Origin: Antedon mediterranea
Taxonomy: Eukaryota > Echinodermata > Crinoidea > Comatulida > Antedonidae
Length of the DNA: 64,000 nucleotides
NCBI RefSeq assembly: GCF_964355755.1
Contig: NC_092672.1
Location: 9,978,501 to 10,042,500, forward strand
Reading direction: 5' to 3'
Position numbers and translations under genes: made by a program
In this document: in pieces, positions 18,901 to 58,548 of the stretch
How positions within the stretch are numbered: the stretch's first letter is position 1
How the letters are laid out: each line of letters starts with the position of its first letter
The notes under the pieces: model-generated
Told to the model about the DNA's origin: nothing
The model's database searches: none
Seen by the model: only the letters and a program-made list of their open reading frames with translations

Positions 18901-21900
18901 ACACTATGTTAAATTTGTGCACGCGACTGCAACCATGTATATGGCCTTGTTTGGGTACATCATACTTTTTTATCAAACTAGTTTGATAGTGTAGACAGAT
19001 CTTAACACCAATGAGTGCGTATTCTGATCCCGTTTATTCAGAATGACTTCTGTTAGATGTCAGTTTTAACTATTGTATAAATATGTATAATGGCAAAGGA
19101 ATGTCAAAAAGAAAGTATAAGACATGGAAGATATATTCTAGTTAAACTGTTATTAAGTATGATAAAAAGGGATATAAGTATTTATCAAAAAAATAAAACT
19201 GGGGGAAATCCTTACAAAAGAGAAAACATTTCTGTTTTTGACGGTTTACCGCAAACTTAAAGTTTAATCCCGTTTGAAAATTACTATAGTGTTAATTTAT
19301 TCAGAAAAAATGAAATAACATGGCAAGTACAATCAATTAACAGCATCAAAAACAAAAATCAATCAGAATAACTGATCAGTATCTAAAATCCCTGCATAAG
19401 CAGTACTGAATGACTTTCTCACTTCGTATCACAATTACTAATTTCGAAAGGAAAAGAAAAGAAACATGTAAGAGTGGAAGGATTGACAGTACAATAAAAT
19501 GTCAACCCACTACGTTGTATTTTGCTGTTAACAACTATAATTACTGTACTTTAGGCTATATCAAGAAAAAAAAACTTTTTTTTGTGTGTAATTTTACCTC
19601 TCCCTGGTAATATTGTATACTTTGTAGTGTTTTTCTTTTTTTTTACAAATATTTTGTTAAATATTAAAACGTCAGAATGTGGAATATTTGGTTCAAAGAT
19701 GTCTTTTTCTATTGACCAATCATCGTTTAAATTATTACAAAATATTATATATTGACAGAATAAGTAAATTTAATTTTTTTTTTTACAGTTTAATAAGATT
19801 CATAATCTTGATAATGCATATGTACTGTACAGAAAAGATTCAGTAACTTTAACCACGTGATCTTTTATTTTTAGGAATTAAGTTGTCAAAAGAAAGTCTA
19901 GAAAATATTTCTAACTTCTAAGTTTTGTATCAAAAGAGAAAGGTAGAAAATGCTTATGTATGATATATAATTTATCGTTTATCGTCAGTTCTTCCGAATT
20001 ATGACATCATTTATCATTTCAAGAATTTTTCTTTCAAGAAAATTATTTCTGTCAAGCAAAAATCTAGACCACCGGATAATACCTAGCGATAATTCAATTT
20101 CTATAAAGTGATTTCACAAAACGAATTTATCGAGATACATTTTACTTTCAATTATATTGTATCTTCTGAATTTCAGACAGCTGTTTTAAAAAAGGTTATA
20201 ATTAAAATGCCAATAAATGATAGCAAAACACAGAGATAAAAAAAATAAAAAGAAATGTCACTCGATCTTGTAGAGTCAGTAACTTAGTTTAAAGCATCGC
20301 TTGAATGCTATATTGAATGCATAACTTGATTTTTTAGATGACAGGGTACTATCGTCCTATCCTATGCGATTTAGCTCAGGCTTGTTTGTGTAGAAAATTA
20401 TGTTTTTCACGTGAACAGGGCCCGATGCCAACTTGTTGAGAAGGAAAGGGAATATTTTGTGCAATATAATTCAGAATTTTAGAAAAATAATAACATTACC
20501 AGTTAAACTAACTTTACCACAAATTAATAAGTACAGTTCAGCACACACTATGTTTATTTTCTAATAATATTTGTTTAATATTCAAATATAATAATGATCA
20601 ATGAAAAAGAAATCATATGCCTACTTGTTTTTCACGTGAACAACTTGTTGAGAAGGAGAGGGAATAATTTTTTAGCAATAATTCAGAATTTTAGAATAAT
20701 AATAACATTACCAGTTGAAATAACTTTAACACAAATTAATAATTACAGTTAAGCACTTACATTATGTGTAATATCTTGTTTATTTTTGTTTAATATAAAC
20801 AAATAATAATAAGAAAAAAGAATCATCATTTTACCGAATGTCTTTCTTTTTGTCTTCAGCAATGTATGGCGGGAATGAACAGAAACTGTACGATGATCTG
20901 TTCCGGGATTACAACAAAAAAGTTAGGCCAGTCTGGAACTCATCACACCCAATCACTGTTTCTATGGACCTGTCTATCTACCAAATCGTAGAGATGGTAA
21001 GTAAATCATTTACTTTTTTCACTTAAAGGGTAGCTCCGGGTATGAATGTGTTTAATCATTTTAAACCTTGCCAACAAACACTGATAATTACCCCACTGTT
21101 TTTCGAAAGATATAAGATAAGTAGTTATAAAGCACCACTTTTATTTTACGATGCTCGTTCTCTTTTACTGCTGACGAAAAATAAGTAGAGTAATTATCAA
21201 TGTTGTTAGAGCTACCCTTTAAATCTCCAACAAACACCTTCTTCATATCCACGTAAAATGGGCTAGTCCGTTCAATGTAATTATAAGAAAATTAAATGTG
21301 AACATATGTTGCAAAGCAATTCTTCTGCAACATAGAATTTAGTCCTGTATCTATTGTTATCATTGCCAAATATACGTTGAGCGCCCGGTCGTCTCTGGAC
21401 AAGCGGGCATAACTACCAAGTATCAATTTGGGTTTGGTTATTATAAGCAAAATAAAGAATTGAATACACTAAGATTATTGTTTAATTGCACATATTAATT
21501 ATTCCATTGACACTGTCAGATGTCGAGTTATCTATAGACTAATAATATAATCACTTGCACTGATGAAGGGCTAGTGTTGCCCGAAAGCTCTGCTAACTTT
21601 TCTGGCTGTTTACTTTATCGTGTTGATTTAGCTTTTTGCTTTTTATTTTTGTATCTCCATTGAGATCCAGCCACTGATACCCACAGCATTGTCATTTTTT
21701 TCAGTAATTTGCCTTTGGACTAATAATATAATAGATATTAATAACAATTATTTACAATTATCCTTATTGACACCCAGTAATTTAATAATATCAGTCAGTG
21801 TGACTTTATCAAATTAATGTTCTATTAATTGTATCTACAGTATTCCACACAAGCGACTATAATGATTAATAGTGTATAATCCTCCAAGAAAATTAATTTT

Positions 21901-24900
21901 ATTATATTATAATAAACTACGTTAGTGTTCGTATTCATCAATAACCTAAGTTATAATAAATTATAAATAAGTATTTGAGATATGTTTTTTAATGTAGCCA
22001 AAATATGTTACTGTTCATTCAACTTAAAATATGAAGAATGATATTTTTTTTGTCTGAATAATAACCTTTGTTTAGTTTATATTGAACAACAATATTTGAT
22101 ATTACTTAATATGGTTGCGGACACTTACGAATGACACGTATTGTTGTCGGAACCCCTTTACCGCTTGTATCGAATAAATAAATGGGATCAGGTGGAAGTG
22201 AATCCTGATGAGACGAAAATGTTCTTTCAAATGGCAGTGAAGATTTATTTTATTTTTTTTATTTTCAATCTTTCTACATAGCAAAAAAACAAACATATAA
22301 GTATAACAGGGGGGAGTAGCGGAAAAGCAAAAGTATAAAACTGTCATCTTGTGATGTGCTTGACCAGCCCCTGTCAACTTGAACGATACAATAAAACCGA
22401 CATTTAACAAATTTAGAAAAATACATAGAAAAATATGGTATAATAAAATGTCAACAAAAGTGTTATAAAAATGCAATTGCTATCTAACAATCTGATTGTG
22501 TAAAAGTTAAAAATTCTGATTGTATAAAAGTTAAAAATTCTGATTGTATAAAAGTTAAAAATTATAAATGTATAAAAGTTAAAAATTCTGATTGTATAAA
22601 AGTTAAATTCTGACATTCTGGTCAAGATGGTAAACAGGAGAAATAATACGCAAAACAAAAACGCACCAGTTACTTTAACAAGTAGCTATAGTGTAAGTTG
22701 ATCACTACGCAGCTAGCTATTTGATCATTCTTCTCTTACCATGGTTTTCGAAAGTATAAATTAATAAGGCTGTTCGACCCAACCATTTCGTATGTCATGA
22801 AAACGGACGGTCGATGAACTCCGCCGATTCAGGGAATCGATACTGTTTGGGTATAATATTTTATCGAAACGAATGTAACATACTCATGCAAAACATGTCC
22901 TCTGACGCTTTTTTACCTCGGAACGTTAATTCAACACATTTGAATTCATTCATTTCCCTCTCTCCACCCAGTTATACAAATGGGTACCTGACATATACCA
23001 AAATACGACTGCGCTGATTATTAGCTGCATTATGGGATTATTTTTCCATTCGTGTTTTGATCCAAAAAAATTACTGAATGAATGGGGTAGTAATGCGAAG
23101 CACTATGGAGACTTTGTACAGTAAGCGCTATATAAGATCGACGCATTATTATTGTATGATAAAATTTTAATTATTGAAACGTCACCAATTAAATAAACAA
23201 TACAAGAGGAAATATTATGTATGTCATATAGAAGCCAATTCTTACCAGGGAGTTGTAAAATATTATTGTACAACTCTATTTTCTTACTGTGTCATGTCTA
23301 ATAACAATAAACTGCGTGGCTGTTTCATGGCAAGCAACCGTACCGTAACTCCTAACTTACCTCCCATAAATAATCTCCTTACGCACTTAAACGTGGTTCC
23401 CACTAGCGACGCAACACAAGGACGTAACGCAACGCAAGTGAATTGACCAATCACAAACGATGGCTTATTCGCTTGAGATTGCTAACTGTCTATAACTTCG
23501 CTTGTCATTGGTTAAAACGCTTGCGTTGCGTTTACGTCCTTGCGTTACGTTCTAGTGGGAACCAAGCTTAAAAAACACATCGACGTGGTTTTAACCCCCA
23601 AGTATTTTCCGATACCTATAAAGGATAAAAAGCTTGCTTAAAATGAAAAACATTCAAAAGAGATTCAGACCAGTAAGTAACCCAGTGTCAGAAATGCCAC
23701 AGAGGGTACAATTGGGTTACAATGGCATAATACGTCATAACATTAGTATTCCCATAATGTTCATAATGCAATAGTGTTTTTAATTTTTATTTATTTTTAT
23801 ATTCGAATGGTTTGACCGGTTTTAAACCGTTTTACAATGCCAATCAATATTCATTTGTTTAACAAATTGGACTAATATGCCTAGATATCGTATCATATCA
23901 TCTTAAACAGCATTCTCTTACTCTTGCCTGGTAAATCAAATTGAAAAACCGCGATCGTGTTCAATCCGAGGTCATCGATGAATTGGAAAATATCATTTTA
24001 TTCCAACAGCTATTGACAGTTACAAAAAGTGTTTGTCATCGTTAATTTTTTATTTGGAATGCAGACAATTTTATCGTAATGGATTGGAACTTGGATAAAA
24101 ATGAAGCTTATCTAAGTAGCAATTTATTATGATTTCCATTATTGTAAAATTTACTTTCGTAGTGTAACTAATACTATAAAGACGGCAAACAAATGTTTTA
24201 ATTGAAATGTATAAATTATAATATCACTATTATAAGCGGCAAATAATTTCAATGAGAGAGTGAGATTAGTATAATTATATAAGGAATTATAATAGTGGCA
24301 CTATGGGAATATACGGTACCGGACGACCATTAAAGTTAAAATGTATGTTATTTCATTTTTCGTAACACATAAGTGTATAGATTTTATTTCTAAACTTTAA
24401 CATTTAACATACAAGAAACTGTGGGAATCGAATTGTTTCCCATTGTATTTTGAACGCGTGTCTGTCGGAGTATAAACAAAGCAAAAACAACGACTAAAAC
24501 GAAATGTTGCCGAACTCTTATACTACTTTTGCTTATTAATGTTGTTGTATATGGAAGTTACCCGATATTTTTACACTCACTATATCAGTCGGTTGGTCGG
24601 TCGGTCGGTAAACACTAACTTAAGCACGCGACTGCAGCCATGTATATGGCCTTGTTGTTTTTCACTATGCTATGCTATTATTTTTATTTAGAACCAACAT
24701 CTACACAATATGCTTTACAAATTTTTCTTATGCGTCTTGGAGGTGTGATGAATTATGCGTCGCGCCATGTGAGAAAAATTGCGATATTAGCAGACAATTG
24801 AAGCCAATGCCCTTGGATTGGTAGCCAAACTAGTCGTATGTAAAATAATAAATGTATGCATATATAGTATTTGAAATATTGAAATTGATTATTTTATATT

Positions 24901-27900
24901 AGATCAATTCACATTGATTAAACTTTCAACATGCATGTTTGAATAATATAAATAAAAGGAACTTGCACTGAGAATATGTTGTGTAAGACCCTTACATTAC
25001 ACATCCATCCAACCTTAATTAAGTTTCCAAGATGATGTGGTCCATTGAGAAAAGAGTTTTTTTTTAAAGAAGTTTTAAAATCATAATTATGAATATTATA
25101 ATACACGTAAATTCCCTCTGGCAACTTGTGTTCCTATTTTTTATTTGCTGTGTTGAATGTTGTACCTAATTAGATGGATGGACGTTACGAGGAAAGTATC
25201 TGATGCATGGGTTAAATTGGTTGAAAAACATAATTATGGAATAACTATTAAAGAAAATCTTACTGAGGCGAGCATTAGTGTCTGGACAAGTGTCTGTAGC
25301 CACACATTTCACATGTGCGGTGGGCGCAAAAGTGGAAAAGGGTGTCAACACTTATGATTGTGTTACATAATCTTCTACGTGATTTCACTGTTACTTTACT
25401 TTGAGTTTATTACAGTTTGAATCGTCTTCATTTTTTTCCTTTCCTTTTCTTAGAAAATGAATTAAAAAACAAATAAGCTCTCTTTTTTTGTGTTGATTTA
25501 ATAATGTTGTAAATCTGTATTTGTTGGTCAGGAATTTTTAATATGATTAAATGTTTGGTAACTTTTTTTATATTTTGTTCATATTTTATACATTAAATTA
25601 CTTTATTATACGATTTTATAGTACAGGTATAATAGTTTGTAGTTTGTAATCGGTAAACTGTAGGTACATAAATGAATTGTAATTTTCTAAATTCCAAATT
25701 TATGTTATTATTGTTGCTTCTTTGTTTTGTAGTTGATGTATGTGTGATGTTTAACTCTTTATTTCAATATGTTAGTTGTTTTTTTTTTGTATATTCCAAC
25801 AGTCAATAAGTAAAAAGAAACGCACATACTAACACAATAAATCGTTCATCCAATATACTATCATGATCTACATCACATTCAAAATTCTAATATATTATTA
25901 TGCGAGGCCTTGATGGGATTTGTATTACGCAACTTGTTACTCAAAAAGCTACTGTACGTTTACACGTAATCCGTAATGATCTGTTGCCACTGCTTCAGGA
26001 CATTGCAAGTGAATTAACTTTCACATATTACATAAACCGCAAGCCGAGTACATTATGCGCAATTAGAAAACGCGCTGAAATCTAGTACGTGTTCGTCTCG
26101 TTCACTATAGATGATACCCCTGGGCTCCGCCCCGGGTATTCAGCATTTAAATACATTTTCTAGAAATCGATTTTTACTCGATTAATATATTTTTATCATC
26201 GTTCTGTAAACATAACGGTAAAGGGCGGGTACGCTGTTGGAGCAAGAAATATAAACCAATGAACACGAACAATGTTTTTATAAATATGTATTTAAAGACA
26301 CCGTTTAGATCTAATTTAAGATCACAAACTATATTTAATCTAAAAATAATACTATATGGTCCTATTGCGATAACTTTTTCGTCTTTAAATGGTTAAAAAT
26401 GTAAAAAATAAGTTGATTATAATAATTATAGCGGCCCGCTATAAATCCCAAAATGCATTGCGCGCGCATTGATATTTTTCTTCTGTAATTCACCCACTTT
26501 TCGATCGGTCGTGAGGCCAAATCAAATGGAAGACTCCTAACTTTTCAGAGAAAATACCGGGTTTTCCCCAATTTGTATCAAAGGAGTCTGGCAAAAATAG
26601 AAAGACAATTAATGCAGTAACTATACAACGTCAGGCTAGATATATAGCTCGTGTACGATGTTCGTACGTTACCGATGTTTACCAGCTAGGCCTACAAAAC
26701 TAAGCCTAGCTAGGCTAGGCCTAAAGACCGTCCACGAGAGGTCAGTTGCCGCGAGCTACTTAGGTAGTGCATTGTTTATCACTTTTTTATCATAATTTAC
26801 CATAAAACGTACATTTAAGACAAGGAATGACCTGGTTTAATGTTTTATCTATAAAAGTAATATATATGTATTATTTTACAAAACTTCACAAATTGTAGGG
26901 AAGGTGTCTTTAAGTAAGATTTATTTTGTAGGCCTAGTCGTGTGTACAACTGAGAGAACTGAATGTTTGAATGTAGATATTTGGTATGACTGCGGTATCT
27001 TGATTTTGCTATACAGTAATAAAGGAAGGCCTTCGGAACCAGAGAGAGTTTTTCACAAAATAAGGGTTGTCCGTAGTGTTAAAATAATGTATTTCTTCTT
27101 ATTTATTTCACAGTAAAATATCTCTATAGTATAGGTGGTATACACTGAATAAAGGTTTTCTGTAGTTTTCTAAGTGTTAAAATGCATATTCTCCTTGTTC
27201 GTTTTACTGGAAAGTGTCCACTTAAAGATGTAAAATTATTATTTATAGATATTCATTTTGTGATTCTTTAAACCGTACAAAGACATTACAAAACGATTAT
27301 CCAGACTTATTAGCAATCACATACTATTATTGACAACTAATAAACCTTTTTTACAATTAAAAATCGATCGTTAACAAGTAATTTAAACATAATTGTTCAT
27401 AATGTTAATAAAATCAAATTGTTAGGAAATTATTCATTTATTAACTAAGCGTAATTTCTTTCTTCTTTTTGCTAAAACATTAATGTTAGACATAAGTTAC
27501 AATTTAATTTTGCAGTAGGTAATGTGCACTGTGCATGCATTAATAATAAAGATTAAAGTTCTTCTATGATATATTTATCTACCACATACAAAACCAACAT
27601 TATGGTTAATAAGGATATATATGAGTAATTTACATAGATAATATTGAACAATTTATGCGATTTTAGAAAGCTACTAATTATGGCACGGTCGGTACTTTTT
27701 TTTAAACAATCATGTATGTAAGATAACTTCTTATCAGTTTTGATGAAATTCAATACTTTAAAAAAAAGTTAAAAGTCACTATCACAAACTGGTATTGGCT
27801 AAAGCCCTGTGGCCGTATTTACCAATCACACTTTAGAGTAAGAGAAACATTTTTTCTTAAAATTAAGAAAAAATCTCCTACCTAAGTGAATGAAATTTAA

Positions 27901-30900
27901 GGAAAATACTTAAAATTAAGGGAAATATCTCACTTAGGTGTGAATATAACCATCTTCTCTGTCGTGTAATCCTTCTTTTGCTGGTGTGTGACCCATGTTC
28001 CCTGACTTATTTTTACTCCTCCCTTGTTTGTAATAACCTCTTTCATAAGTTTTCATTTTCATTGATCTTATTTTTTCCTGGTTTGGAACGTTTTTGGTGT
28101 AATGAGCTCACTTCTTCTTCATCCTGGTTTCCAAGCTTACTCTCTAGTTTTCTTCCATCCCACACTATCCTTCATGATTAAATGTTTAATCTTTCTTCTT
28201 TTGAAAAAGAACGTTCTAACGAAGAACAGCCTATTTTGTTTTATTGTCGTCACAACAATTCTTTCCTATCTGTATAATATGTTAGCCGAACTTCAACTAT
28301 GTCTGCAGTTATCCATCATCCTTACAATCATTTCTTTGGTTTCAAAGATAACTGTAACCACCGATGTTAGCCGCAGCATCACCTCAATCCAAAGATGTAC
28401 TCTTTTCACAACGCAAGTCATTACTTTTTTTTATTCAGAGTGACTTCTGTTAGCCAAGATTCTGTCCGAATTAACGTTTCTTGTATTTAAAACAAGTTAA
28501 TTGATTTTCTCCGGGAAACCACCGTGTTAACTGATTTATTCCATTTTGACGTTATTCTAAGAACAGAAAGAGCCGTTTTAACGTGTATACAGTCATTGTT
28601 ATGTTGAAGTCATAAATTCTACCGACGACCAATTCATCATATTATTTTTATTTTACGATAGACCTCTACTGCGTTTATTATTCGAATTATGTAAATTGTA
28701 ATGCACCGGTAGCGTTGACATACATATTCAACGACTAAATGTTATCAACTTCAGCAATCCAGCCTTACGTGGATATTTTCTGTGAAGCGTAAAGGGCATT
28801 CAATGTGGAGCAATACAGGAATGCATTTCAGTTTCAGATTCAGGGTGTTAAAATTGAAATAGAAAATGAATTTTTAATGGCCAAACGTATGAGCTGTTGA
28901 GTTGATCAGTTTAGAAACACTCAACCAAGACGAATAATTTCAACACACTCTGTTAAATAAGAGATTATTCTAAATTCAAATGCAAATTTTCTTCGCGTTA
29001 TATTTACCTTCCTCTCATTATAGTAGTTTCAGTAAATAACTTTAGCAGAACCGGCCGCTTATGGAGAAACACAATATTATTATTATTATGAACAGTACTA
29101 ATATTTATTTACCACCATCTGTACATACATGTTTCTGTTGTATATTTGTGAATTGTCATTCATAATTCTATTGCATTGATATGTTATACTGCTGGCAAGC
29201 CACGTGTGGATGTACCATTACTATGTGTGCCGCTGTTTTGAAAGCGTTTTCCGAATAAATTATCATTATTATATAATAGAATAAAGAGATAGAAAACCCC
29301 CTGACAGAAAATACAGTGATACATTGAAATTCCATTAAAATTCAAATGATGATCTATGTTTTATTTAAAGTAAACCCCGTGTATATAATATGGGTTTTCT
29401 TTGCATTGTGGTGGTTGTAGTGTTATAATAATAACATTATATTTCCCCATGGTTTGATTTCCTATTTTTATGCCACATTAATTAAAGTCATATAATGTTT
29501 TGTTATAACGTAACATTAAAATAATGTTATTACTACGTGCGTATTACTAAGTAAATCGGACGCCGTGTATATGTATTTCCAACGCATTGTGAATCTGTAA
29601 CCACCGATCAACAACATTTTATGTTGACAATGATAACCAACACATATGTACTGTAACCATCGCGTTTAAAATTGTAACCATGAACGATCGCCAATACATT
29701 GTAACCACCGGTCACCAATTCTAACAACGATAACCAACACGTTATGAATTGTAACCAACGCGTTATGTATTGTAATCAATGAGTTATGTATTGTAACCAA
29801 TGAGTTTTGTAACTCACTAATACATTATAACCAACTACATGTATTACCATTATTTTACCAACGAACGATAAAAACACGTTATTGTTGTAACCAACCATCA
29901 CTAACACGTAACGCATCGTAAAAAATGATAATAACCATACGCTTTGTATTACAACGATAACCAACGCCGTGGTTATCGGCTAATTAAAATAATAAAACAA
30001 CAATAATTGTGTATATACGAATTATGAAATTATTCAGTGCAGCAATAAAAAAAACATATTCGTGTACGATGTCGATAAACTTAAAATGCTTTAGGGCACT
30101 TATTTAATGTAAGCGGATCAATAGTACATAGAATTAAAGGCAAAAATGGTAATTATATACTTTCATTTTTTCCATAATAATTATCAACTACTGCATCTGC
30201 TGCAGCGTTTGTTTTTTTTTATTTGCCCTGAATATGTTTGAAATATTTAAATGTTTTAATTTTTACTTAAATATAAATTCAACCGGTTACTGACTTAATC
30301 ATTTTTGTTAATAATAAAGAAACATAATTATGTATCAATTATTTCGGTCAACAAACAATGGTATCCGATACGCCCTCTATAGTTTCTGCCTTAACCTAAT
30401 AGAAAAAAAATAATGCATCCGGCACCTTTCATATTGTAAAATATATTACTATCGTGCATTCAAGTTTTCTTTTGTTTATAAATTATCTAAATAAGTTAAA
30501 AATAAGTATTGTTCACGTACTGATATCATACTGCTATACTAACTTTATAAAACTCTTTAATTACTTGATCAGTATAAGTTATATTATTAAAAGTACGTTT
30601 CAACAAAAGGATGATTGATGGAAATGTTGTGAATGAACATCCATTATAAGAACACGCACAATCTTACTTGTAGCAATTCTATAATTGCTAAACAATGCTT
30701 TTGGCATTATGTAAATAAATATAAATATTTATAGGTTTTATTTCAGACTGTTCGGGTCCTACATATCATTTAGTATCTATTATCAATATTAAAAATGTAT
30801 AGGCGTGACAGTAGGCCTCTAGCATAATGGATATAAAGACGAAGACATTTATGTAATAGTAAAATCGTTTAATGCTATAACTCATTAATAATAATCGTTA

Positions 30901-33900
30901 CCGTATGGTTTCAATGTAATTTTATGCTTTTATTTTCAATTTAATTTTATGCCTAAAATAAAAATGGTCGTTTATAATTTTACTTATTTTAATTAATATT
31001 CATTATATTATGGTTTCAGTATACAGTAAATTCCCTAAAATATTTTACGTATAGTTTATTTATGCATCAATTTGAAGTAAGACTCTTCAATGCCTGATTA
31101 AAATACGATCCATGGGCACTGTACAAAAAAACAACACGTAATCTGCTTTAGTTGTTCTAATTAATATTACTCGTCATGGTTTCTAAATATAATTGCCATA
31201 CAATACATGATTTTTATTTGTTTTCAATTTATTAAAAGCGCAAACTGTTTTTTTTTTCAAAGTCGTGTTGTACTTTATTATATTTTTTTTTCAAACACAT
31301 AATCATTACAATATTGTAAAAACTTTAGCAAGACAATTTGATGGTATCTGTAAAATTCATTACAAGATCATTTTAATGAGATCTTTTATTTTATTAGTAT
31401 TGACAAAATGAATATTGGTCATAAACGCAGTTTTAGAGAGTAGCAATAAAACAATTATAGCCTATGGGTTTTACCAATTGTACGTGACATTTGTTAGGTT
31501 AGCCATATGTGTAAGATACTGTATGTACGAACAACAATAACAAACACAACTAACAAAACCGTATAGGAACAACGAAGAAAGTATTTTATATTATACATTA
31601 AGTATTACATTAAGACCAACTTTTTGGATTTGTATATTCTGTGTTCAGGTCATATTAAAAGTTGTATTCATTAGTGCAGGAGATGGTATATGACTTTCTG
31701 CAATCTTTAAACTAAAATTAATAGAGGTATTAAAATAGATAATAATATTAATCTAAAATAATTATAGTTTTTAATGTTTTATTAAATATAACGATATAAT
31801 GAGAGCACACACATGCAAGTGTACTAAAGTGACAATGTTTGTTCTGCAAATTCTGTTTTGAAATTCAGTCACGATGCAGGAAGTTTAGAAAAGACTAACA
31901 TATATACTATCTTGAGTACGTACGTATTACTTTGATAGAGGCCTTTTTGACAAGAGCATTGAATTATGCTTGTCGTTTTACTGTCAATACATTGATTGAG
32001 CTCTGTCACTCGTTTTTCATTTTTATTTCTTAGCTTATCTTTACAGTACGGACTAATGACCGATGTATGTAACAGGAAAAAGAAATCGCTATGTGGTTGG
32101 TAGAAAATGATGGATGGAAAAATAAATATGCCTTCTTTAAACAGTCTCCGTTATTCACTTAATTATTGTCACATTACTTTCGTATTTGTCATCATTTACT
32201 TCATATGTCCATCTGTCTCAATTTATTTAAGTACCGTAAAACTAATGAGTATTATAATACGCATTCAACCAGTTTGTTAGTTTTAAAAGAAATGCCGTTG
32301 GTTTGTTGATAATAGTGAGAAATCGATTATTCTTAAAATTAATAATACTAATAACGTATTATCAATATTATTACTTTTATCGTATCACATTAATAGATAA
32401 AATACAATAGTTACGGTATATCAGGTAAGAGCACTTTTCCCTGTGTACATACATTAACTTCGGGTCATACGATAACGTTCACCCAATTTTTCAGCGCACG
32501 TTTCTGCGTATATTAAGCATGATGACTAGTTTTAATAATATCAAAGTTGTTATAATTTCTTCAGTACTAGTTTAGTGACTGACTTGTGCATGTATGCTAA
32601 TCGAAGGGTAATGTGATAAGTTGCGAATATTCTAGTGATAGGTGAAAGCAGTAATACATTAGTTAATGAATAAGTGGGTCGATGTACTAAACAACATATA
32701 GGAAATAATAATGAAATGTATTCAATAGAAATAACAATATAAGCATTTAATGAAGAACATACGTGTACGAAGAAAAGAACGAACTCATAAACAAATATAT
32801 AAACGAAATGAAGATCCTGTTACTTTAAATTTATTTCGTTATTGATTTTGTCGCCGATTTATTGAATTATTATACCAATCATTGATCGAATTTAGTTTGT
32901 GTTCAGTTAAAAATTGAGTTTCAGTTCCGTCGCGACAAAATTCATGTTTTCATTTCATCTCTTCGCAAGACGAAACAATGAACAATTAACACATTAATAT
33001 AGATTTGATTCTCGGGCAGGATGGACATAAAATGAAAAAAAAAATAGGTTGTTGAATATTGTATAACAATATTTTATGAATATATAATACAATTATTTAA
33101 CATTATGACTGTGAGATAACACGTTCTTGATGAGAATATTTTATTAAATGTTGTTAAGATGTTACGTTGGTTGCCTGTTAACACATTGTTTAGAAGAGTA
33201 ATAAGCTTAACAATGCTTCGAAAGGGCATTAATTGATTAAATGCTGTTAGAAACGAAAGAGATATGTTGTTAATTAGTTGTTGTAAGGGACTAATGAGAT
33301 GAATGTTGTTAGTAGAAGTGTAGAAGTTATGGAATTAATTTATAATTCAATGACAATTTGTTTATAACCTTTTCAATTTTGTTCCATTATGTCGATATAT
33401 ACGGTAATTGTTTACCCGGGTGAGGGGTAATCTAGAGATAATAATTATATTCCAAAATGAAGACGAGGGATGATACAATGCAGTCTTCAGATCACAGTAC
33501 AGAGGGCTTTATTTTGAACGTGTTGCGATAAAACCACAGTCAAATAGGCCCTCACATTCAGATCCGTTTTGTATATTTGTTGGATTAATGGTACATTAAC
33601 TGTTCTTTTTTAGTTTAAAAAACACATAAAGAATATTATTAATATCGCTATAATATCTCTATCACATACTTAAACCGATGTATAGTAAGTTTATTTTAGA
33701 TATAATATGCTAACTATTCCAAAGGTGCACTTTTATCGTTCTTTAACTGTATGGCCACTGAACTTACCAAATCCTCGGTCGGCTAAGTCTGAATGTTTAA
33801 ATCCTTTTGAAACAACCAGTGATTGTTGTCAGCGGCTTTACTTTGGCCTTGATCGATTGCATTCAGACATACACATTTAAAAAATACTGTATTTAAATAT

Positions 33901-36900
33901 ACACCAAATATCAGATGCTGTGAATTGCAGTTATTAATTTAACCTATTTAGGCCTACCTAATAAAATATTTGTCAAATCCTCATATGGTGCAGGTACATA
34001 TTAAACAATGTCTGTATTAGCTCATTTAAGAAATAAAATATCGGTTTTGGCCATAACTTCTGAAAAAAAAGGGGAAAATAATAATAATTGTGTTAGGGGG
34101 CGCTGTTTTTTATCTAAGATATCAATCAAACTACTTTAAAATACCTGCATCCTACTTTTCCAAACGTGTTGAATTGTACAGCTGATTAAGAGAGAGTTGT
34201 TAAAGTTTACAGGTGGTACTTACTTAGATTAAATAACTAGCTTTGAGGTATTTTCATTCCATTCTTGATTGATTCTTGTACGGACACTTAAAAAATATAT
34301 GTTTAGTCCATTGTAACCTCTATTTTTTTTTAATGTTCTAAATATTTAGTTTTTTTTCTCAATAATAGTATACATCAATAAAACAAATCGTATGCATAGT
34401 AGTCACTGCAGATTAAATGGAATATTATTGATATTATGGAATAAACGTGGACCGAACATTAATGTGTTTCCAAAGAAAAAAAAGAACAGTGTATAGAATA
34501 TTACACACTAGGAAAAATCGTTCTGCTATTCAGATCACTTACATTTAATCATATTTTGAAGTCTATTTTGATTTATGACTTTAATAGAATTTAAAGTGCT
34601 TAAATTGGCATTGAATTGCGGGAACTGAGCGAGTTATTGCATTTAATTTGTATTTTAATTCAACACAATCTCAGCTATTAATTGATTTTTTTAACGAATT
34701 ACACTCTGGAGAATTAAAGACAATCGTATTATATAGACTCGTAACAAGATATAAAATAGAAATGAGTAACCTATGATGATGGTATCAACACTTTAACCAT
34801 GTTAAATTTTCAGACTAAAGAGTAACAATATTACAAACTGCCTGTTTGTTGTATTAATTGTAATTTGTTGTAGGGAAGCGGTGCTGTTGGTGTTCAGGGG
34901 ATTTACACCTCATACTTTACCACTGAGTTAGGTTTGTAAGTAGATCTTAATAAAAAAAAAAGAGATACAAAATTGGATCTGAACTGAAGTAATAGTTACG
35001 TCAGTTCTTGGAAAACAAAATTAAATTTACAGTAGCGAACTTTATTTGATATTTTCAATTTTCTTTCAATCCCTTAACAAACATATCTTTATTATATAAA
35101 TGACATGAAAATTACGTCCGTTAAGTTATAACTACTTACAAATAATTTCTTATTCACATATGACTTTTCTTGTGTTCCCAAGATTGTTGTAAAATAGAGA
35201 TAATAGTGTTAGTATCGCTATGTTATAGGAAACGTGTCGTGTGAATACGTTCTTAGGGATTCAATAGGGAGAGCCTACACAGAATACATTCTTGATGTGT
35301 TCACATTTTGGATCATGATTTTTTTGTTATCTTTCAGGATGAACGAAATCAAGTTTTGACGACAAATGTATGGATAGAACAGGTAATTAGATGTATTCAC
35401 AACTCTGTTTTCAATGTCATAACGTGCTACAAATACATTATCTAACCGCTGTCATATTACTTCAAATAAGACAACCAAGTATATAACACTATATAGTAAA
35501 ACTTTTTACGGCGTTCAGAAGTGTGGTTTCACCAAGCAAAATGGCCTCAAATCCCATATATTGTTAGGATCGTTTTACAGGGCCAGTATCATACTGTTAG
35601 ACTTACTAATAACAATGAATATGCCTCACATTTATTTTTGAAAAACGCCCTTTACAATCAACAGAAAACGAATAAAAATTGAGACGTTTGAATTCTTTTT
35701 GTAACGAACATTTGATTTCACATCTTGCACTATACACCATAAACGTTGTGTATTAACAATACATCATTATAATGCATTAAAAAAAATGTGTTCATTTTAT
35801 TGTATTCATGTATAGCATTGGGATGATTTAAAACTAACATGGGACCCCGTTGACTACGATGGTATTGAAATTCTACGCATTCCTGCAACGGAGCTGTGGA
35901 TGCCTGACATTACTCTTTATAACAAGTAAGTGACGACTGGGTTTGTTTACATATTTGCGTGCGTATACGTAGTAATGTGAGTGGCGTGTGGTAACACAGA
36001 CCTGTCTGAATGTTGTGTGTTAGAATGCTGCCACTTGGTGGCGTGGTTCACATAATATTTCACACATTTATTTCACACAATTATTTCCTATAATGGCTTT
36101 GATTTACCATTTATGAATGAGGGGTGTTCTTTCTGAGTTATATTGCTCTTTATAGAGTATAGGCTAATTTCGGTTTATCTAGGTTAAGCGGTACACATAA
36201 TAACGTAACGTAAAACATAGATTAAGTTAAGGGTATAGAATTGAAGTCTATGATAAAGTTTACCAGTACATGTGTACTCAACAACGGCCGAAGATTCAGT
36301 CTATAAATATAATTATCCTACGTAGCCTCAATTGTCTTAAAAAACTAGTTAGTTAGTTGATTGTTCCTACCGTTTAGTGGCAGAATTCAACCAAAGTATC
36401 AAGCCATTCATGAGTTTAACAATAAAATTTATTGAATTGAATTGAATTGAATTTAAAACGACACGACACACCAGGCTTCGAGTCGCATGTTATTTCCCCA
36501 CATTACGTTTTATTTTTATTTACATTTTTTAAAATAAGATTTCTAAATCAAAGATTAGTTACTTATGTGTTTTAATATTATACAGATGTTTTTTTTTATC
36601 CATATATTTAGTTTTAGTAATCATGACCTATTGTATTTTTCAGTGCCGATTCTGCGGACTATGTTTCGAATAGTCGAGGATCTAACGCACTAGTAAACTT
36701 CACCGGAAGTGTTTCACTTTGGTCAAAGCCAACTTTAGTGCGTAGTGTCTGCAAAATTGACATTAAATACTTCCCATTCGATATGCAAGAATGTAAAATG
36801 AAATTCGGTTCATGGACTTACACAAGCTACGAGATGAATCTACTGAAAAAGAAACAGTTGCCAGATATGTCCGGCTACATACAGAACGAACAATGGGACC

Positions 36901-38560
36901 TAAAATACACAGTCGCTCGTCGCAATATCGTCAGGTACCCATGTTGTTCGTACACCTACCCGGATGTCACATATTATTTTGGTCTCAAACGGAAGCCGTT
37001 GTACTACATTTATAATTTATTAATGCCGTGTATGCTTCTATCAAGTTTGTCACTTTTAGGGTTCTGTATGCCGTATGCCGTGGGAGTTGTAAAAGTATCT
37101 CTCAGTGTTACTTTGATATTATCGTTAACCGTGTTCCTATTGTTAGTAGCAGAAATGATGCCGCGGACGTCGGAAATCGTTCCAGTTATTAGTAAGTTTA
37201 TTTCATTTAAACGACGTGAATATATATTTCATTTATTAAGACCAGCATTACATTAATATAGCCTACATAAAAGAAACAATAACATATATTAGAATAGTAG
37301 TGCCAAAACTCTTTTTCATCAAAGTTATGCCAATTAAAAAACGATTTTGTAGGTAGATTTTCGGTAATAACTTTATTATCACCATTTAATCGAATGAAAA
37401 GAGAAGAAATGTGTCTCATGAAACATGGATACTAAATAACTTATCGTTAACGATACATCATACATCAACTGTACCTTTAGTTTCATTTTAACATAACATT
37501 ATAATATATTTGCAATATGTTATAATACAATAATTAAACATATACTGTATTAACCTAATTAATAGATACGTTACAATATGGTTTCCACCAATCAACATAC
37601 AATAAACATATGATCATAAACAACAATTGCACGGTTTTCCACCAATGATTAAACTTATAAATTCGAATATATTGTATACGTACCCATAAACATTGAAAAC
37701 GCTGGAATATGTTTACTCATTTTCCACTAGTAAACAGATGTATAATCATAATTATGGTCTATCATAAACCAATATACAATATTGCATTGTATTATGTTTT
37801 TTTCCACGTAGATGAAAATATGGACGTTGCAACAGAAAATAATACATGGACATTTGGACTTAAGCTATTAGTAATACATATGTGTGTTTTTCCAACAGGC
37901 CAATACTACGCAGCGACAATGTTCCTCATTGCATTCTCCACTGCCATGAACGTGGTGGTTCTCAACATAAACGGACGTGGAAATGGCACCGCACCTGTTC
38001 CGCATTGGCTCAAAGTCATTGTTGTAGACTTCCTTGGTTCGGCACTGTGTATTCAATGTGATCCACCCGGGTGCCGTAAACGTAACCAGCAAAGTCCTCC
38101 AGAATCTGATTTTCGAAATTCGTATGTTGAGCATCATCGTGGAAGTACGAGCCAAATTGTAAAACGCGATGGAAGTTCTCATAGTATGGCCAGTAGAAAT
38201 ATTCGATTCGGCAATTTAATCCCAGAACATGAAATTCTACTAGAAGATAAGAATGGAAGTCCAGGAGGTAGAGGACCATTTGGGGGTGTCGGAGGAGAGG
38301 ATCATGGAGATAATCGATTAATTAAGCTCGAGAGGTCAGTAGATGGTATTTTAAAACACATGAAAAACGCACAACGTAAGAAGGATAAAAGCAGTCATTT
38401 GCGACAGGAATGGAGCGCGGTTGCAAGAGTTCTCGATCGCTTTCTTCTCATACTATTCCTCACGAGTTCCGTTGTTACTTCAATTATTCTTCTTACACAA
38501 GGCATACCGGACAGAGAAAGACCATCATCCAATGACACAACGATAGAAGAATTGGGCTAG
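15899..38560 (+). CDS. CHRNA-like: Nicotinic acetylcholine receptor, alpha-type subunit (six coding exons)
   Basis: This is a Cys-loop ligand-gated ion channel subunit, expected at the plasma membrane in a pentamer. Coding exons are 15899-15992, 20860-20996, 35338-35382, 35816-35925, 36644-37191 and 37899-38560. All borders are GT/AG and phases join, giving 1596 nt and 531 aa. Residues 1-24 look like a signal peptide. Seen: loop A Tyr127 (LYNNAD), Cys-loop Cys165/Cys179 with 13 residues between, loop B Trp186 (GSWTY), and loop C Tyr227, vicinal Cys229-Cys230, Tyr234. The vicinal Cys pair defines an alpha-type, agonist-binding subunit. M1 is about 249-270, M2 279-299, M3 313-335 and M4 about 491-512, with a basic amphipathic helix before M4. 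N-glycosylation sequons include NES at 26, NSS at 58 and NFT at 147. Odd: the M1-M2 loop (YAVGVVK) lacks the usual -1' glutamate, has one extra residue, and 4' is Ser. The ligand and subtype are not proven. Confidence 0.93.
17055..17090. repeat. Perfect 16-bp-arm hairpin
   Basis: CATGGGTTAATGAATA, four bases AATC, then the exact inverted copy TATTCATTAACCCATG. It is isolated within intron 1 with no flanking element recognised. Confidence 0.9.
18700..19003. mobile_element. MITE-like palindromic element, copy 3, split by a nested repeat
   Basis: Left half starts AAATACACTATCAAAC and holds GTGATGTGCCCATATATG and AACTACCATATT. Right half ends TAGTTTGATAGTGTAGACAG. Between 18812 and 18950 a TCGG-core repeat interrupts the interior; the uninterrupted copy at 6534 reads straight through ACCATATTTGGGCAC at the matching point. 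The nesting shows that the TCGG element inserted later. Confidence 0.8.
18812..18950 (+). mobile_element. TCGG-core interspersed repeat, copy 3 (nested insertion)
   Basis: The most complete copy: AGTCGCGTGTAAACGCGAC at the left, ACTCTACAGCTCACTATG, a long (TCGG/TCAG/TTAG)n core, AAACACTATG, GTGCACGCGACTGCAACC and CCATGTATATGGCCTTGTTT-like right end. It sits inside the MITE at 18700-19003, which is direct evidence that the family is or was mobile. Confidence 0.8.
20400..20825. repeat. Diverged tandem duplication of about 200-225 bp
   Basis: The blocks TTTTTCACGTGAACA, AACTTGTTGAGAAGGA, AATTCAGAATTTTAGAA and AATAACATTACCAGTT occur twice in order, in about 20400-20620 and 20626-20825. The second copy ends just before exon 2 of the nAChR gene. 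Confidence 0.8.
20860..20996 (+). CDS. CHRNA-like: nAChR exon 2: N-terminal helix and first ligand-domain strand
   Basis: Encodes residues 32-77, from AMYGGNEQKLYDDLFRDYNK to the IYQIVEM end. The family pattern of an N-terminal helix (EQKLYDDLF), NKKVRPV and the first beta strand is clear. Acceptor TTTTTGTCTTCAG, donor GTAAGT, ending in phase 0. Confidence 0.92.
21023..21222. mobile_element. piggyBac-type MITE candidate (TTAA target duplication)
   Basis: A 192-bp element (21027-21218) with terminal inverted repeats AGGGTAGCTC and GAGCTACCCT, flanked on both sides by TTAA. TTAA duplication is the hallmark of piggyBac-mobilised elements. It starts only about 30 bp after the exon 2 donor. No coding capacity. 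Confidence 0.7.
21555..21720 (+). repeat. Possible retroelement fragment
   Basis: The motif CACTGATGAAGGGCTAGTG followed by GCCCGAAAGCTCTGC resembles the GATGAAGG...CCGAAA segment often found near the 3' end of metazoan retroelements. There are no coding remains and the call is from general impression. Confidence 0.3.
22492..22613. repeat. 24-bp AT-rich tandem repeat, about 5 copies
   Basis: Repeats of CTGATTGTATAAAAGTTAAA plus AATT, with one variant unit (ATAAATGTATAAAAG). The minus-strand frame reading FNFYTIRI again and again is only this repeat translated. Confidence 0.9.
23091..23158 (+). mobile_element. LINE/SINE 3' tail fragment, L2-like
   Basis: Reads TAATGCGAAGCACTATGGAG, then ACTTTGTACAGTAAGCGCTA, then TATAAGATCGACGCATTATTATTG. 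The GCGCTATATAA plus ATTATT ending is typical of L2-clade LINE tails and the SINEs that share them. No coding part was found upstream. Confidence 0.45.
23388..23570. mobile_element. MITE with GGTTCCCACTAG inverted ends
   Basis: Left end GTGGTTCCCACTAGCGACGC and right end TTCTAGTGGGAACCAAGCTT are inverted. Inside, AAGGACGTAACGCAACGCAAG pairs with TTGCGTTGCGTTTACGTCC, so the arms extend to about 60 bp around TTGACCAATCAC/CATTGGTTAA. It is the parent family of the 48-bp array at 9553-9799. Confidence 0.85.
24574..24656 (+). repeat. TCGG-core interspersed repeat, copy 4
   Basis: ACTCACTATATCAGTCGG, (TCGG)n, AAACACTAACTTAAGCAC, GCGACTGCAGCC and ATGTATATGGCCTTGTT match the other copies. The left terminus is lost. 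Confidence 0.7.
26430..26760. other. CpG-richer patch inside intron 2
   Basis: Contrasts with the AT-rich surroundings: GCGGCCCGC, ATGCATTGCGCGCGCATTG, CGATCGGTCGTGAGGCC, GTACGATGTTCGTACGTTACCG and clustered AGGCCT/CTAGGC strings. It could be an alternative promoter or a mobile-element end. No ORF or defined motif supports either. A small hairpin with ATACCC/GGGTAT and GGGC/GCCC stems lies just upstream at 26115-26141. Confidence 0.3.
29598..29975. repeat. Degenerate TGTAACCAACGCGTTATGTA repeats
   Basis: About 15 imperfect units containing TGTAACCA or GATAACCAAC followed by ACGCGTTATG-like sequence, at spacings of about 20-35 bp. The regular short unit marks an old, diverged minisatellite. 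Confidence 0.7.
35338..35382 (+). CDS. CHRNA-like: nAChR exon 3 (45 nt)
   Basis: Encodes DERNQVLTTNVWIEQ, the near-invariant 15-residue exon of nAChR subunits. Acceptor TTATCTTTCAG, donor GTAATT, phase 0 on both sides. Confidence 0.95.
35816..35925 (+). CDS. CHRNA-like: nAChR exon 4 (110 nt), loop A
   Basis: Encodes HWDDLKLTWDPVDYDGIEIL and continues to LWMPDITLYN. It carries WxPD and the loop A tyrosine (Tyr127). The length of 110 nt is the usual one for this exon. Donor GTAAGT; the split codon AA|T gives Asn129. Confidence 0.95.
36431..36454. repeat. (ATTGA)n microsatellite at a possible retroelement tail
   Basis: Four to five repeats of TTGAA preceded by AATAAAATTT, as at the 3' end of a short retroposed element. 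It lies inside nAChR intron 4. Confidence 0.6.
36644..37191 (+). CDS. CHRNA-like: nAChR exon 5: Cys-loop, loops B and C, M1 and M2
   Basis: Begins after TTTTTCAG with the codon completing NNAD. It contains NFTGSVSLW, the Cys-loop (CKIDIKYFPFDMQEC), GSWTY, YPCCSYTYPDVTYYF, M1 (PLYYIYNLLMPCMLL) and M2 (KVSLSVTLILSLTVFLLLVAE). The -1' Glu is Val278, with an extra residue before it. The true coding region starts at 36644, well upstream of the first internal ATG at 36738. Donor GTAAGT at 37192. Confidence 0.95.
37899..38560 (+). CDS. CHRNA-like: nAChR exon 6: M3, cytoplasmic loop, M4, stop
   Basis: Starts after TTTTTCCAACAG; GC joins the A of exon 5 to make Ser312, followed by QYYAATMFLIAFSTAMNVVV (M3). 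The cytoplasmic loop of about 150 residues has a Gly-rich stretch (SPGGRGPFGGVGG) and a Lys-rich helix before M4 (LLILFLTSSVVTSIILL). The protein ends EELG then TAG. An open frame extends upstream into intron 5, but those residues are not coding. Confidence 0.95.
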
Positions 38561-47406: not shown

Positions 47407-48192
47407 ATCGCCAACATAATTTTGCGCGGAAATCGTCTTGCCGGTAGCAATCTCATGTCAGAAAAGGAAATGCAGAAAAAAGGAAGGGGAGCATGTGACT
47501 GAAGAGTAGAAGAGTCGAGTAATGTAGTTGTTAGCTGGTTGGACACAAAACGAGTAACTTTAATTTCAAGTTATGCTGGCGTTGAACCAACAGACAAGGC
47601 GCGTTGCTGGGACAAAGGGAAAAAAGAATTTGTAGAGGTTACAAGGGTTACAAGACCATCTATTGTAAGCCGGTATAATACCCATATGGGAGGAGTTGAC
47701 GTAATGGATGCTTGCATTGCCAGATACAAATATCACATCATTTCAAAGCGTTGGTATCTGTATTTGTTTTGGCAAGGTGTGTACATAGCCCTTGTGAATG
47801 CTTGGCTTCTATATCGCCGGGAATGCAAAGAAGTAGGCGTTGCAAAGAACTCAATTTTGAATCAAAGGAAGTTTCAAGCAATAGTTGCACAAACACTCAT
47901 TCAAATAAACACTAAAAAACCAGGCAGACCATCAACTCCAGTTGCAGCTAATATTCAACCTGTAAAGCGTCAACAAAAACGCCCACTTGCAAACGACGAT
48001 GTAGGGTTGGATAAAGTTGCCCATTGGCCACTAAAAGATGAAAAACGCCGTCGTTGTGCTATCTGTAAAGTCAACAAGACAGATACAACATTTGAAAAAT
48101 GCAAAGTAGCTCTTTGCTTTACAGAGAAGAGGAATTGCTTTAGAGAATACCACAAAAATAGACTTTTCATAATTGTATCAATACAATTATAA
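47407..48192 (+). pseudogene. piggyBac-type transposase, C-terminal part, broken
   Basis: Cut-and-paste DNA transposase relic. In one frame from 47407 it reads NRLAGSNLMSEKEMQKKGRG, then a TGA at 47500-47502 where the family has an aromatic residue, then continues in the same frame through SNVVVSWLDTKRVTLISSY. From there to 48192 the frame is open. Recognisable blocks are YNTHMGGVDVMDACIARY (the third catalytic Asp of the DDD triad lies in GGVD), WYLYLFWQGVYIALVNAWLL, and a C-terminal Cys/His domain CAICKV...FEKC...LCF...NCFREYH typical of PGBD proteins. The N-terminal part with the first two catalytic Asp residues is missing. It cannot be active. Confidence 0.9.
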
Positions 48193-52162: not shown

Positions 52163-52500
52163 GGTCAGATGTTTTGCCCTACTCTGACGTAATTTCTACT
52201 TCATACTAAGTATATTGAGAATACTTCTGTTAGCCAATATCCTAACGCAAAGCTACTCTACAGTAGTTACAAACAATTAAAATCCTGTTGGTGCAGTACG
52301 CGCTGATTAATTGGGCTCGAATCTAATCCCTAGCCATCAGAGCAAGCTCGGTGGTCTAGAGGTAAGAACGCCAGGCTAATGATCTGGAGGTCGTGGGTTC
52401 GAGTCCCACCCGAGAATTATTTGCGTATTTTTTCGCAAGTATTCTCAATGTACTTAGTATGAAGTAAAAATTACGTCAGAGTAGAGCAAAACATCTGACC
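52163..52500. repeat. 63-bp inverted repeat enclosing a tRNA-like sequence
   Basis: Arms 52163-52225 and 52438-52500 are reverse complements with only a few mismatches (for example TCTGACGTAATTTCTACTTC against GAAGTAAAAATTACGTCAGA). The 212-bp loop contains the tRNA-like sequence at 52345-52416. A second, direct repeat (GCAAAGCTACTCTACAGTAG and GCAAAGTTACTTCACAGTAG) lies just inside or outside the arms. Confidence 0.9.
52345..52416 (+). tRNA. tRNA-Ile(AAT)-like sequence, probably a tRNA-derived SINE head
   Basis: Box A TGGTCTAGAGG and box B GGTTCGAGTCC are both intact. The anticodon stem CCAGG/TCTGG closes a loop CTAATGA (anticodon AAT, Ile). The T stem GTGGG/CCCAC is perfect. The acceptor stem pairs at only five of seven positions (first two mismatched). 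A T6 run at 52428-52433 could stop RNA polymerase III. The mismatched acceptor and the repeat context favour a tRNA-derived SINE or tRNA pseudogene over a working tRNA. Confidence 0.6.
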
Positions 52501-56359: not shown

Positions 56360-56810
56360 ATGTTGGTTACTTATAGATAACATTTTTCGACAGATTGCTC
56401 AGAACATCCATATTTGTAACACATTATTGATTTTTCAATTATTGATGCTTTAAAACATTCACTTAAGCTTGGAAATTAAAGTTTTAAAATAAATAAAAGC
56501 CACTCATTATCTCCATACATAATCCTAGCCTGTGATTGGCTGAAAGTTCAAGCAGATTAGATTTCATTAGTTTAAATGGTAAGTGTTTTTTAAACCGATT
56601 TAAACAGTGTTTGCTGGGAAATCATACTTATTATTAGTACATATACATTTACTTGTATAATAATGTACCTATGCTGATATAAATGTTGTACAGAGAGGCC
56701 TTAGTTAAATAGTTATAAACTATAGTTCCAGCCTAGGCCTTGTCGCTAACACCTAGCAAACAATGCTAGCCTGGTGAGATCCCCGTGGAACTCAGTGACA
56801 AGCCAACTCA

Positions 56811-58548
56811 GTGCCTGGCATGGTAACCTCCGATGATGTTAGTCAAACGATTGAAAAGCGAGACCAATTAGGAAAAGAAGCATTGGATAAATTTGTGACT
56901 TCACGAATGGTTGAAAAAACCGTAACATTTTGGGACCCTCAAAAGAAAAACAACTTCTCTTATTTCAAGCATGTAGGAGCAGTGGTGAAAACCAAAATTA
57001 AAGGTCAACTAGTTTCAATTAAGCAAGAGAGAAAGCTGCTGTCTAGATTGTTAGTTGTGGTGAAGAGCAGGCCAGAGTTCACTCTAAAGGATGTCATAGG
57101 CAACTATGAGTTCAATTGCACTCCACCATCAAATTTCCATCCAGATGGAAAAATGATAATGCTTTCTGGAAAATCCAAGGTATTGCAGTCAATAACAGAA
57201 CTCCCTCTACCAGATAATGTCAGCAGGCCTGATAAAAAGCAGCATTATTGATGGAATGTGTGTCGTCAATATGGTAAAGAAGGTGTCTGATAAGTTCAAT
57301 GCTTCTGACTTTGCATCTGAATTTGTTAACCTGATTGTTGGTATGAGCAAACCATATGATGAAGTTCGTCTTTTATTTGATCAATATCTATCAGGATCTT
57401 TAAAAGAATCTACACGAGATAAGAGAACACAGAAAACAGTTACCATTCACTACCATGTCAATGACAACACTGAGATTAAGAACATTAAGACATTTTTATC
57501 GCACAAAGAGACCAAAACTGAACTTACAAAATCTGTCAGAGAAGATACCTAATCACTTCAAGAACAACACGAAGAAGGTCCTAGTAACACATCACACGTC
57601 CATGGCAAACTGCAATCTCTCAGAAGTTACCATGATGCCAGAGATGACGCACGGACAACACACATTGGAAGAAGGGGACCAACTGGTCTTATTGTATGCC
57701 TTTGATTGTATGAACAAAGACCCAAGTGCCAATGTTGACATATTTTCTGTAGATACTGATGTCTTTATCTTTTTAACAGGAAGCTATCCTCTACTTCCTC
57801 CAATGACCACATTTTGTAGGAAAAGAGGGGAAAAATACCTATATGGGAATGCTATTACCGACTTTGAAAACAAATATCAGCAGCACTGATTGGATGGTAC
57901 GCATTTAAAGGTGCAGATAACACAGGTACATTTGCTGGAAAAGGAGTGTCCGCCCATTTCCCAGCACTTATGAAATGTGACGATGAAATACTAGATGCAT
58001 TTGCTGTATATGGACTGACCTCTGAAATACCAAATTGGATTTTCAGGCAAATGGAAAGATATGTTTGCATATTATACAGTACTTCTAAGATCAAGGCAGA
58101 TTATGTCACAGACTTGAGATGGATGTTATTTGCACAGAAAGGCAAGGAAGGACAACAGTTACCTCCAACCATGGGAACTCTTAGATCACACGTGGAAAGA
58201 GCATACTACATGTCTATTGTATGGAATTCATCATGCAAGCCAACACCATCTATTCCGCCAGCAACTGACTACTCCTGGCAACTAGAAGATGGTCACTTGA
58301 AGCCGGTATTTTGCAACAATCCACCAGCAACAGAAGCTCTTCTAGAAATTCGTCGATGGACCTGCAATGGTTCATGTTCAATAAATCGCTGTAGTTGTAA
58401 GAAAAACAACTTGCTCTGTACTGATGCATGTGAGTGTGGTGATGGATGTGAGAATACAAAGGACTGGAATGTAGAGCTAGTAGACGATATCGATGAACTT
58501 TATTGTATGTATTTATTTAGTATTATAACAGTTCCATTGGTGATTTGA
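56811..58548 (+). pseudogene. Element-encoded PIN/FEN1-like protein with CXC-type Cys cluster, broken
   Basis: Remains of one long protein over shifted frames: 56811 to about 57235 (LLSRLLVVVKSRPEFTLKDV), about 57217-57540 (KPYDEVRLLFDQYLSGSLKE), about 57535-57880 (VDIFSVDTDVFIFLTGSYPL) and about 57883-58548 (ISAALIGWYAFKGADNTGTF, DLRWMLFAQKGKEGQQLPPT). At least three frameshifts separate them. The DTDVF segment resembles the acidic centre of PIN/FEN1-like nuclease folds. Near the end CNGSC..NRCSCKK...CTDACECGDGC is a CXC (TSO1-like) Cys pattern. I recall similar proteins, mostly uncharacterised and repetitive, in fish, corals and echinoderms. The usual N-terminal part seems to be missing. 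The function, perhaps transposition, is inferred only from the inverted repeats around it. Confidence 0.7.

Follow-up and report, generated by a model that had tools for sequence, protein, structure and literature searches.

The 64,000-nucleotide stretch of the crinoid Antedon mediterranea analyzed here (contig NC_092672.1, positions 9,978,501 to 10,042,500; hereafter the window) carries on its + strand a gene for an α-type nicotinic acetylcholine receptor (nAChR) subunit, whose five exons span 20860-38560 and whose selectivity filter, the short linker between M1 and M2, is the subject of this report. Exon 1 (20860..20996) encodes the start of the mature extracellular domain, MYGGNEQKLYDDLF...LSIYQIVEM, and was located by tblastn with the α7 N terminus and by its AG/GT borders. 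Exon 2 (35338..35382, 45 bases) encodes DERNQVLTTNVWIEQ, which aligns to DEKNQVLTTNIWLQ of α7 and includes the loop D Trp at 35371-35373, while exon 3 (35816..35925, 110 bases; α7 tblastn) encodes HWDDLKLTWDP...WMPDITLYN with the loop A Tyr at 35918-35920; borders and codons were checked for both. We take these two exons to match in size the third and fourth exons of nAChR genes in vertebrates, and the loop D Trp to be the equivalent of W55. Exon 4 (36644..37191) contains the Cys-loop (C-x13-C, 36750-36794), the loop B Trp (36813-36815), loop C with its vicinal Cys pair (36942-36947), M1 and M2, as placed by PF02931 and PF02932, a PDB alignment to α7 and codon checks; exon 5 (37899..38560; PF02932 positions 59-232) supplies M3, the intracellular loop, M4 and the stop. 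All internal junctions are AG/GT, and the exons join in a single frame into 499 residues plus a stop, or 507 residues if an in-frame ATG at 20838 is used; the 531-residue protein predicted by the first-pass annotation was not reproduced. The gene starts 5' of the exons identified, and an upstream scan for its signal-peptide exon gave none that we accepted, the candidate at 932-1019 being weak, far upstream and therefore rejected. No second or alternative M2-type exon was found within the window.

This gene is an α-type nicotinic receptor subunit. Pfam recognizes both the ligand-binding (PF02931) and the membrane (PF02932) domain in its protein, the C-x13-C Cys-loop contains FPFD, and all the loop A-D aromatics are kept, together with the vicinal Cys pair, in the α7 alignment and the codon checks; the roles of these loop residues are those that we assume for the family. 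The top PDB matches are α7 receptors, human α7 among them (6.9e-48), and the α7 chains score ~165 bits as against 118 for the γ chain of 2bg9 and ~100 for ε.

The residues just before M2 read FCMPYAVGVVK. The segment MPYAVGVVK (37068..37094, + strand), which comprises the end of M1, the M1-M2 linker and Lys 0', had been reported by the first-pass annotation with Val at -1', one extra residue and no acid in the loop, and each of these features is present in the verified letters; Val also occupies -2'. Relative to α7 (PADSGEK), the linker has one residue more and contains no acid, and the alignment shows this as a single gap in α7 at the linker. The M2 segment that follows (1'-20', 37095..37154, + strand) is that of an ordinary nAChR pore above the filter. 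From K0' (codon from 37092) it reads V1' S2' L3' S4' V5' T6' L7' I8' L9' S10' L11' T12' V13' F14', and it ends with E20' at 37152-37154, so that the 9' Leu and 20' Glu are indeed retained. Because the filter reads VVK rather than GEK, with Val in place of the -1' Glu, we do not claim a cation channel for this gene. Two earlier arguments for its peculiarity need revision. Ser at 4' is not unusual, since another subunit of the same genome (L002) keeps the filter Glu yet has Ser4' and a further one (L001) has Cys4', and a linker one residue shorter is not general among cation-selective nAChRs, since that of muscle ε (PAQAGGQK, found letter for letter in chain B of PDB 9ye6) has the same length as in the window gene, with Gln at -1'.

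To place this filter within its genome, we surveyed the M1-M2 linkers of the 354-Mb assembly (18 contigs) with PF02932 and the window exon. Including the window, 43 places were found, 35 of nAChR type and 8 of GABA/Gly type; these counts are lower bounds, several of the nAChR-type linkers come from a single tandem cluster and are nearly alike, and the 35 include one (L040) whose stretch contains a stop. One place (L014) starts inside M2, and its linker is not judgeable. Among the nAChR-type linkers, the -1' residue is Glu in 32, Val in 2 (the window gene and a gene at C7:3854885-3855400, hereafter the C7 gene) and Gly in 1 (L030). Length follows a similar pattern, with 32 linkers of standard length, the same two genes one residue longer and one linker (L043) one residue shorter. 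An acid is present in 33 of the 35 and missing from the window and C7 genes. The window filter is more than chance, because only these two of the 35 linkers are both long and acid-free. The GABA/Gly-type linkers could be read in seven of eight cases (L006, L007, L008, L011, L013, L021 and L038), and all seven have the longer length and PAR before M2, where the window gene has VVK.

The survey also revealed other unusual nAChR-type sequences. The Gly-bearing linker (L030, C4:20546350-20547135; PPESQGK) has normal length and an acid further back, and represents a second kind of Glu-less filter. Two α4-like subunits at C3:37093795-37118200 (L002 and L004) read SDAQEK, with Gln replacing the Gly before the filter Glu, and have Pro-Ser or Pro-Asp at M2 19'-20'. 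At C3:6804630-6946100, at least 11 nAChR-type M1-M2 exons are clustered (L023, L025, L028, L029, L031, L034-L036, L039, L040 and L043); nine of them have FQQ at M2 14'-16', and the near identity of some (L031, L035 and L036) suggests recent tandem duplication. A PDB search with one of the FQQ exons (L028) gave no informative hint of the phylum. The linker with a stop (L040) belongs to this cluster, as do two members (L039 and L043) that lack the vicinal Cys pair and have a long branch in common in the tree described below.

The linker of the C7 gene reads MPYSVAVVK. The window and C7 exons are 49% identical in residues, and three of the seven codons for conserved linker residues differ synonymously; the higher identity of the linker itself (7/9) was judged too weak to serve as proof of anything further and was dropped. 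A maximum-likelihood tree was built from nAChR-type rows, with the linker kept, from the 27 of the 35 exons that were long enough (the window exon and 26 fetched from the same genome) and three human subunits, and in these 30 rows the two genes are sisters (100/99). They are sisters again, at 100/99, in a tree of 29 rows from which the linker was cut out and one long-branched exon (L032) dropped, so the grouping does not depend on the filter. The nearest rows to the window gene are nAChRs, as the composition of both trees requires, and the pair falls on the side of human α7, α9 and α4, with the fork left open in the 30-row tree. The C7 gene has recognizable M3 and M4 exons. Its M2 above the filter is ordinary, like that of the window gene. 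Most simply, the filter would predate the split between the two genes, each of which has kept it; it would then have outlived a deep duplication, since the clade is supported at 100/99 at 49% identity. As judged from these comparisons, a two-gene neutral-filter subfamily is present in the genome.

The -1' glutamates of cation-selective Cys-loop channels, which form a negative ring at the pore's inner mouth, select cations, and in most Cys-loop receptors loss of the -1' Glu together with a longer linker separates anion from cation pores. We consider that the window gene most likely makes a chloride-permeable acetylcholine (ACh) channel, a reading in which our confidence and our doubt are about evenly balanced, because the subunit contributes no -1' Glu, its linker has the length found in anion channels and Lys 0' remains. 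The subunit would form a receptor alone or with its C7 sister. In such a pentamer the inner mouth would lack Glu and keep five Lys 0', leaving it neutral to positive, and ACh would open a channel passing chloride preferentially, so that its effect on cells with this receptor would be inhibition or shunting. Several observations support this reading: long acid-free linkers are confined to 2 of the 35 nAChR-type linkers read, the filter has persisted through a deep duplication, the linker length equals that of the genome's own PAR-type anion channels in all seven that could be read, the loop A-D aromatics and vicinal Cys pair of the window protein are in place, and chloride channels of nAChR lineage in Lymnaea and schistosomes have Pro-Ala where the Glu would stand. 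In a simulation, E-1'A alone inverts the selectivity of α7 (PMC8011927; this and the other papers below are cited from excerpts).

Several observations, however, weigh against a chloride channel. By experiment, α7 with the proline insertion and the E→A change becomes anionic only when V13'T or L9'T is added and is nonfunctional otherwise, and E→A without the insertion leaves it cationic (PMC6800317, the latter also in PMC8011927, as excerpted). Of the changes that convert α7, the longer linker and the loss of the -1' Glu are present in the window gene, as the first-pass annotation had stated, and the third, V13'T, is absent, position 13' being Val. The filter is Val-Val rather than Pro-Ala, the 13' Val and 20' Glu are of the cation-channel type, muscle ε shares both the linker length and a neutral -1', and the loop D Trp is replaced in an upstream exon of the C7 gene (NMHIFE vs NVWIEQ). 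Nor does the portal lend support, since the net charge before M4, +4 in the window gene and 0 in the C7 gene, lies within the range of the other readable genes (-6 to +8; α7, -2). Rows that proved to be false Trp anchors near M3 were ignored, the stretch taken from L062 resembles intron and cannot be relied on, and nothing usable came from L055, L059 or L063. With the window gene no outlier, pre-M4 charge was dropped as independent support.

The most serious rival, which we regard as a real but clearly less probable alternative, is that the gene encodes a neutral subunit of a cation-selective heteromer, resembling muscle γ/ε, which would join Glu-bearing subunits, thin the negative ring and lower Ca2+ permeability and inward rectification while the pore stays non-anionic. 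Its seriousness stems from ε, which combines the same linker length with an uncharged -1' in a cation channel, and the alignments of the window segment with 2bg9 (γ chain) and 9ye6 (ε chain) contain no net gap. The V13' and E20' residues fit such a role, and the 32 Glu-bearing nAChR-type linkers of the genome could belong to its partners. The window protein, however, has the vicinal Cys pair and the loop A-D aromatics, both of them features of homomer-forming subunits, whereas muscle ε is not known to have such a Cys pair. The γ/ε chains are not its closest relatives (the α7 chains score higher), and the two neutral genes of the genome are instead each other's closest relatives. According to excerpts of PMC12646802, the γ and ε subunits of zebrafish have Gln in the ring, and a single E→Q in δ made the reversal potential of zebrafish muscle receptors independent of Ca2+ and abolished their rectification. 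The annelid Alpo1, which lacks a negative -1', was likewise grouped with cation-type receptors in the excerpted text of PMC4801368. We favor the chloride channel over the low-calcium heteromer because the window subunit has an α-type site complete with its loop A-D aromatics and because its nearest relative is equally neutral. The first-pass annotation had proposed an anion-permeable or low-calcium ACh receptor; the filter on which it relied is real and common to the sister gene, although sequence alone does not choose between its two options.

A subunit with no conducting pore of its own, serving instead as brake, chaperone or ACh sink, is improbable. The nonfunctional α7 with proline insertion, E→A and Val13' (PMC6800317, excerpted) would be its precedent, and the loss of the loop D Trp from the C7 sister is in keeping with it; on the other hand, a non-conducting pore would be expected to decay, and both genes have an ordinary M2 above the filter. 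Very improbable indeed is a base-calling error or a pseudogene, which could be argued from the signal exon that the scan did not find and from a sequence known from the assembly alone. A filter of the same kind recurs on a different contig, in the C7 gene, and the frame of the window gene is open with AG/GT borders, the borders having been checked for this gene only.

The closest known parallels to a chloride-permeable receptor of this kind come from a snail and from flatworms. In Lymnaea and schistosomes, nAChR-lineage chloride channels are marked by Pro-Ala in place of the Glu (PMC4055736, in excerpt; the motif is given as PAK in that of PMC9874803), and the first-pass annotation had noted that molluscan anionic nAChRs lose the -1' Glu. 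Like the window gene, the Lymnaea channels and Schistosoma SmACC-1 and SmACC-2 are nAChR relatives without this Glu, and SmACC-1 has the YxCC of α subunits (PMC4055736, in excerpt). They differ in having Pro-Ala (PAK) and in coming from a snail and flatworms, whereas the window gene has Val-Val-Lys, comes from an echinoderm and is known from its sequence. An α-type nAChR without its -1' Glu is what we found, but the Pro-Ala motif is lacking, and for this reason we do not file the gene as a member of that lineage of chloride channels; it may, by analogy, work as they do. The muscle ε/γ subunits have its linker length, and ε also has an uncharged -1' and Lys 0', yet Gln stands in ε where the window gene has Val, and both assemble with Glu-bearing partners into cation-selective heteromers. 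The GABA-A/glycine-type channels of the same genome share the linker length but have PAR and represent a different superfamily branch. Human α7 is similar in its binding-site residues and most of M2, and differs in its GEK filter and a linker shorter by one residue. Alvinella Alpo1 is nAChR-like and, as far as the excerpt of PMC4801368 goes, has no negative -1', as in the window gene. Other departures from the canonical filter are described in the excerpted papers, namely a schistosome nAChR with VKK (PMC9874803) and a Nematostella sequence with neither a cation nor an anion signature (PMC4795631).

Among the matches listed and in the open-access literature, no anionic nAChR from an echinoderm or any deuterostome was encountered, and the 92 and 64 matching stretches in genome and viral contig collections (non-animal) included no confirmed relative of the window gene. 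The gene could represent an echinoderm ACh-gated chloride channel derived from a nicotinic receptor, the first of the nicotinic lineage in a deuterostome, with a long uncharged Val-Val filter replacing Pro-Ala, a proposal that we hold with rather more doubt than belief. If it is correct, the echinoderm nervous system gains a fast inhibitory use of ACh, and ACh may inhibit rather than excite some cells of A. mediterranea. According to a review, the arm muscle of crinoids showed no response to ACh, and muscarinic receptors, described there for echinoderm muscle, could also explain relaxation. An anion-permeable subunit would in addition be a natural experiment on charge selection, with a long linker devoid of Glu, Pro-Ala or Thr13' that comes near the combination reported to disable α7; should it prove cationic instead, it would be an example of an α-type subunit that tolerates a neutral filter.

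Elsewhere in the window, a transposase fragment lies at 47503-48192 (Pfam DDE_Tnp_1_7, 5.4e-12) and a tRNA match above the Rfam threshold at 52347-52414 (45.8 bits). Three consecutive + strand open frames at 56799-58548, with no Pfam match at 0.001, are possibly an uncharacterized mobile element. In the genome at large, no COX1 was found. The microRNAs bantam and mir-2 did not turn up among the candidates scored (57 of 250594 and 60 of 131623), which is weak evidence of their absence. By contrast, let-7 and mir-124, which mark a bilaterian, are present, and a bindin-core match (E 2.3e-28), the mark of an echinoderm, reads LPVDINDPYDLGLLLRHLRHHSDLLANIENPAVKQRVLDALNEQ.

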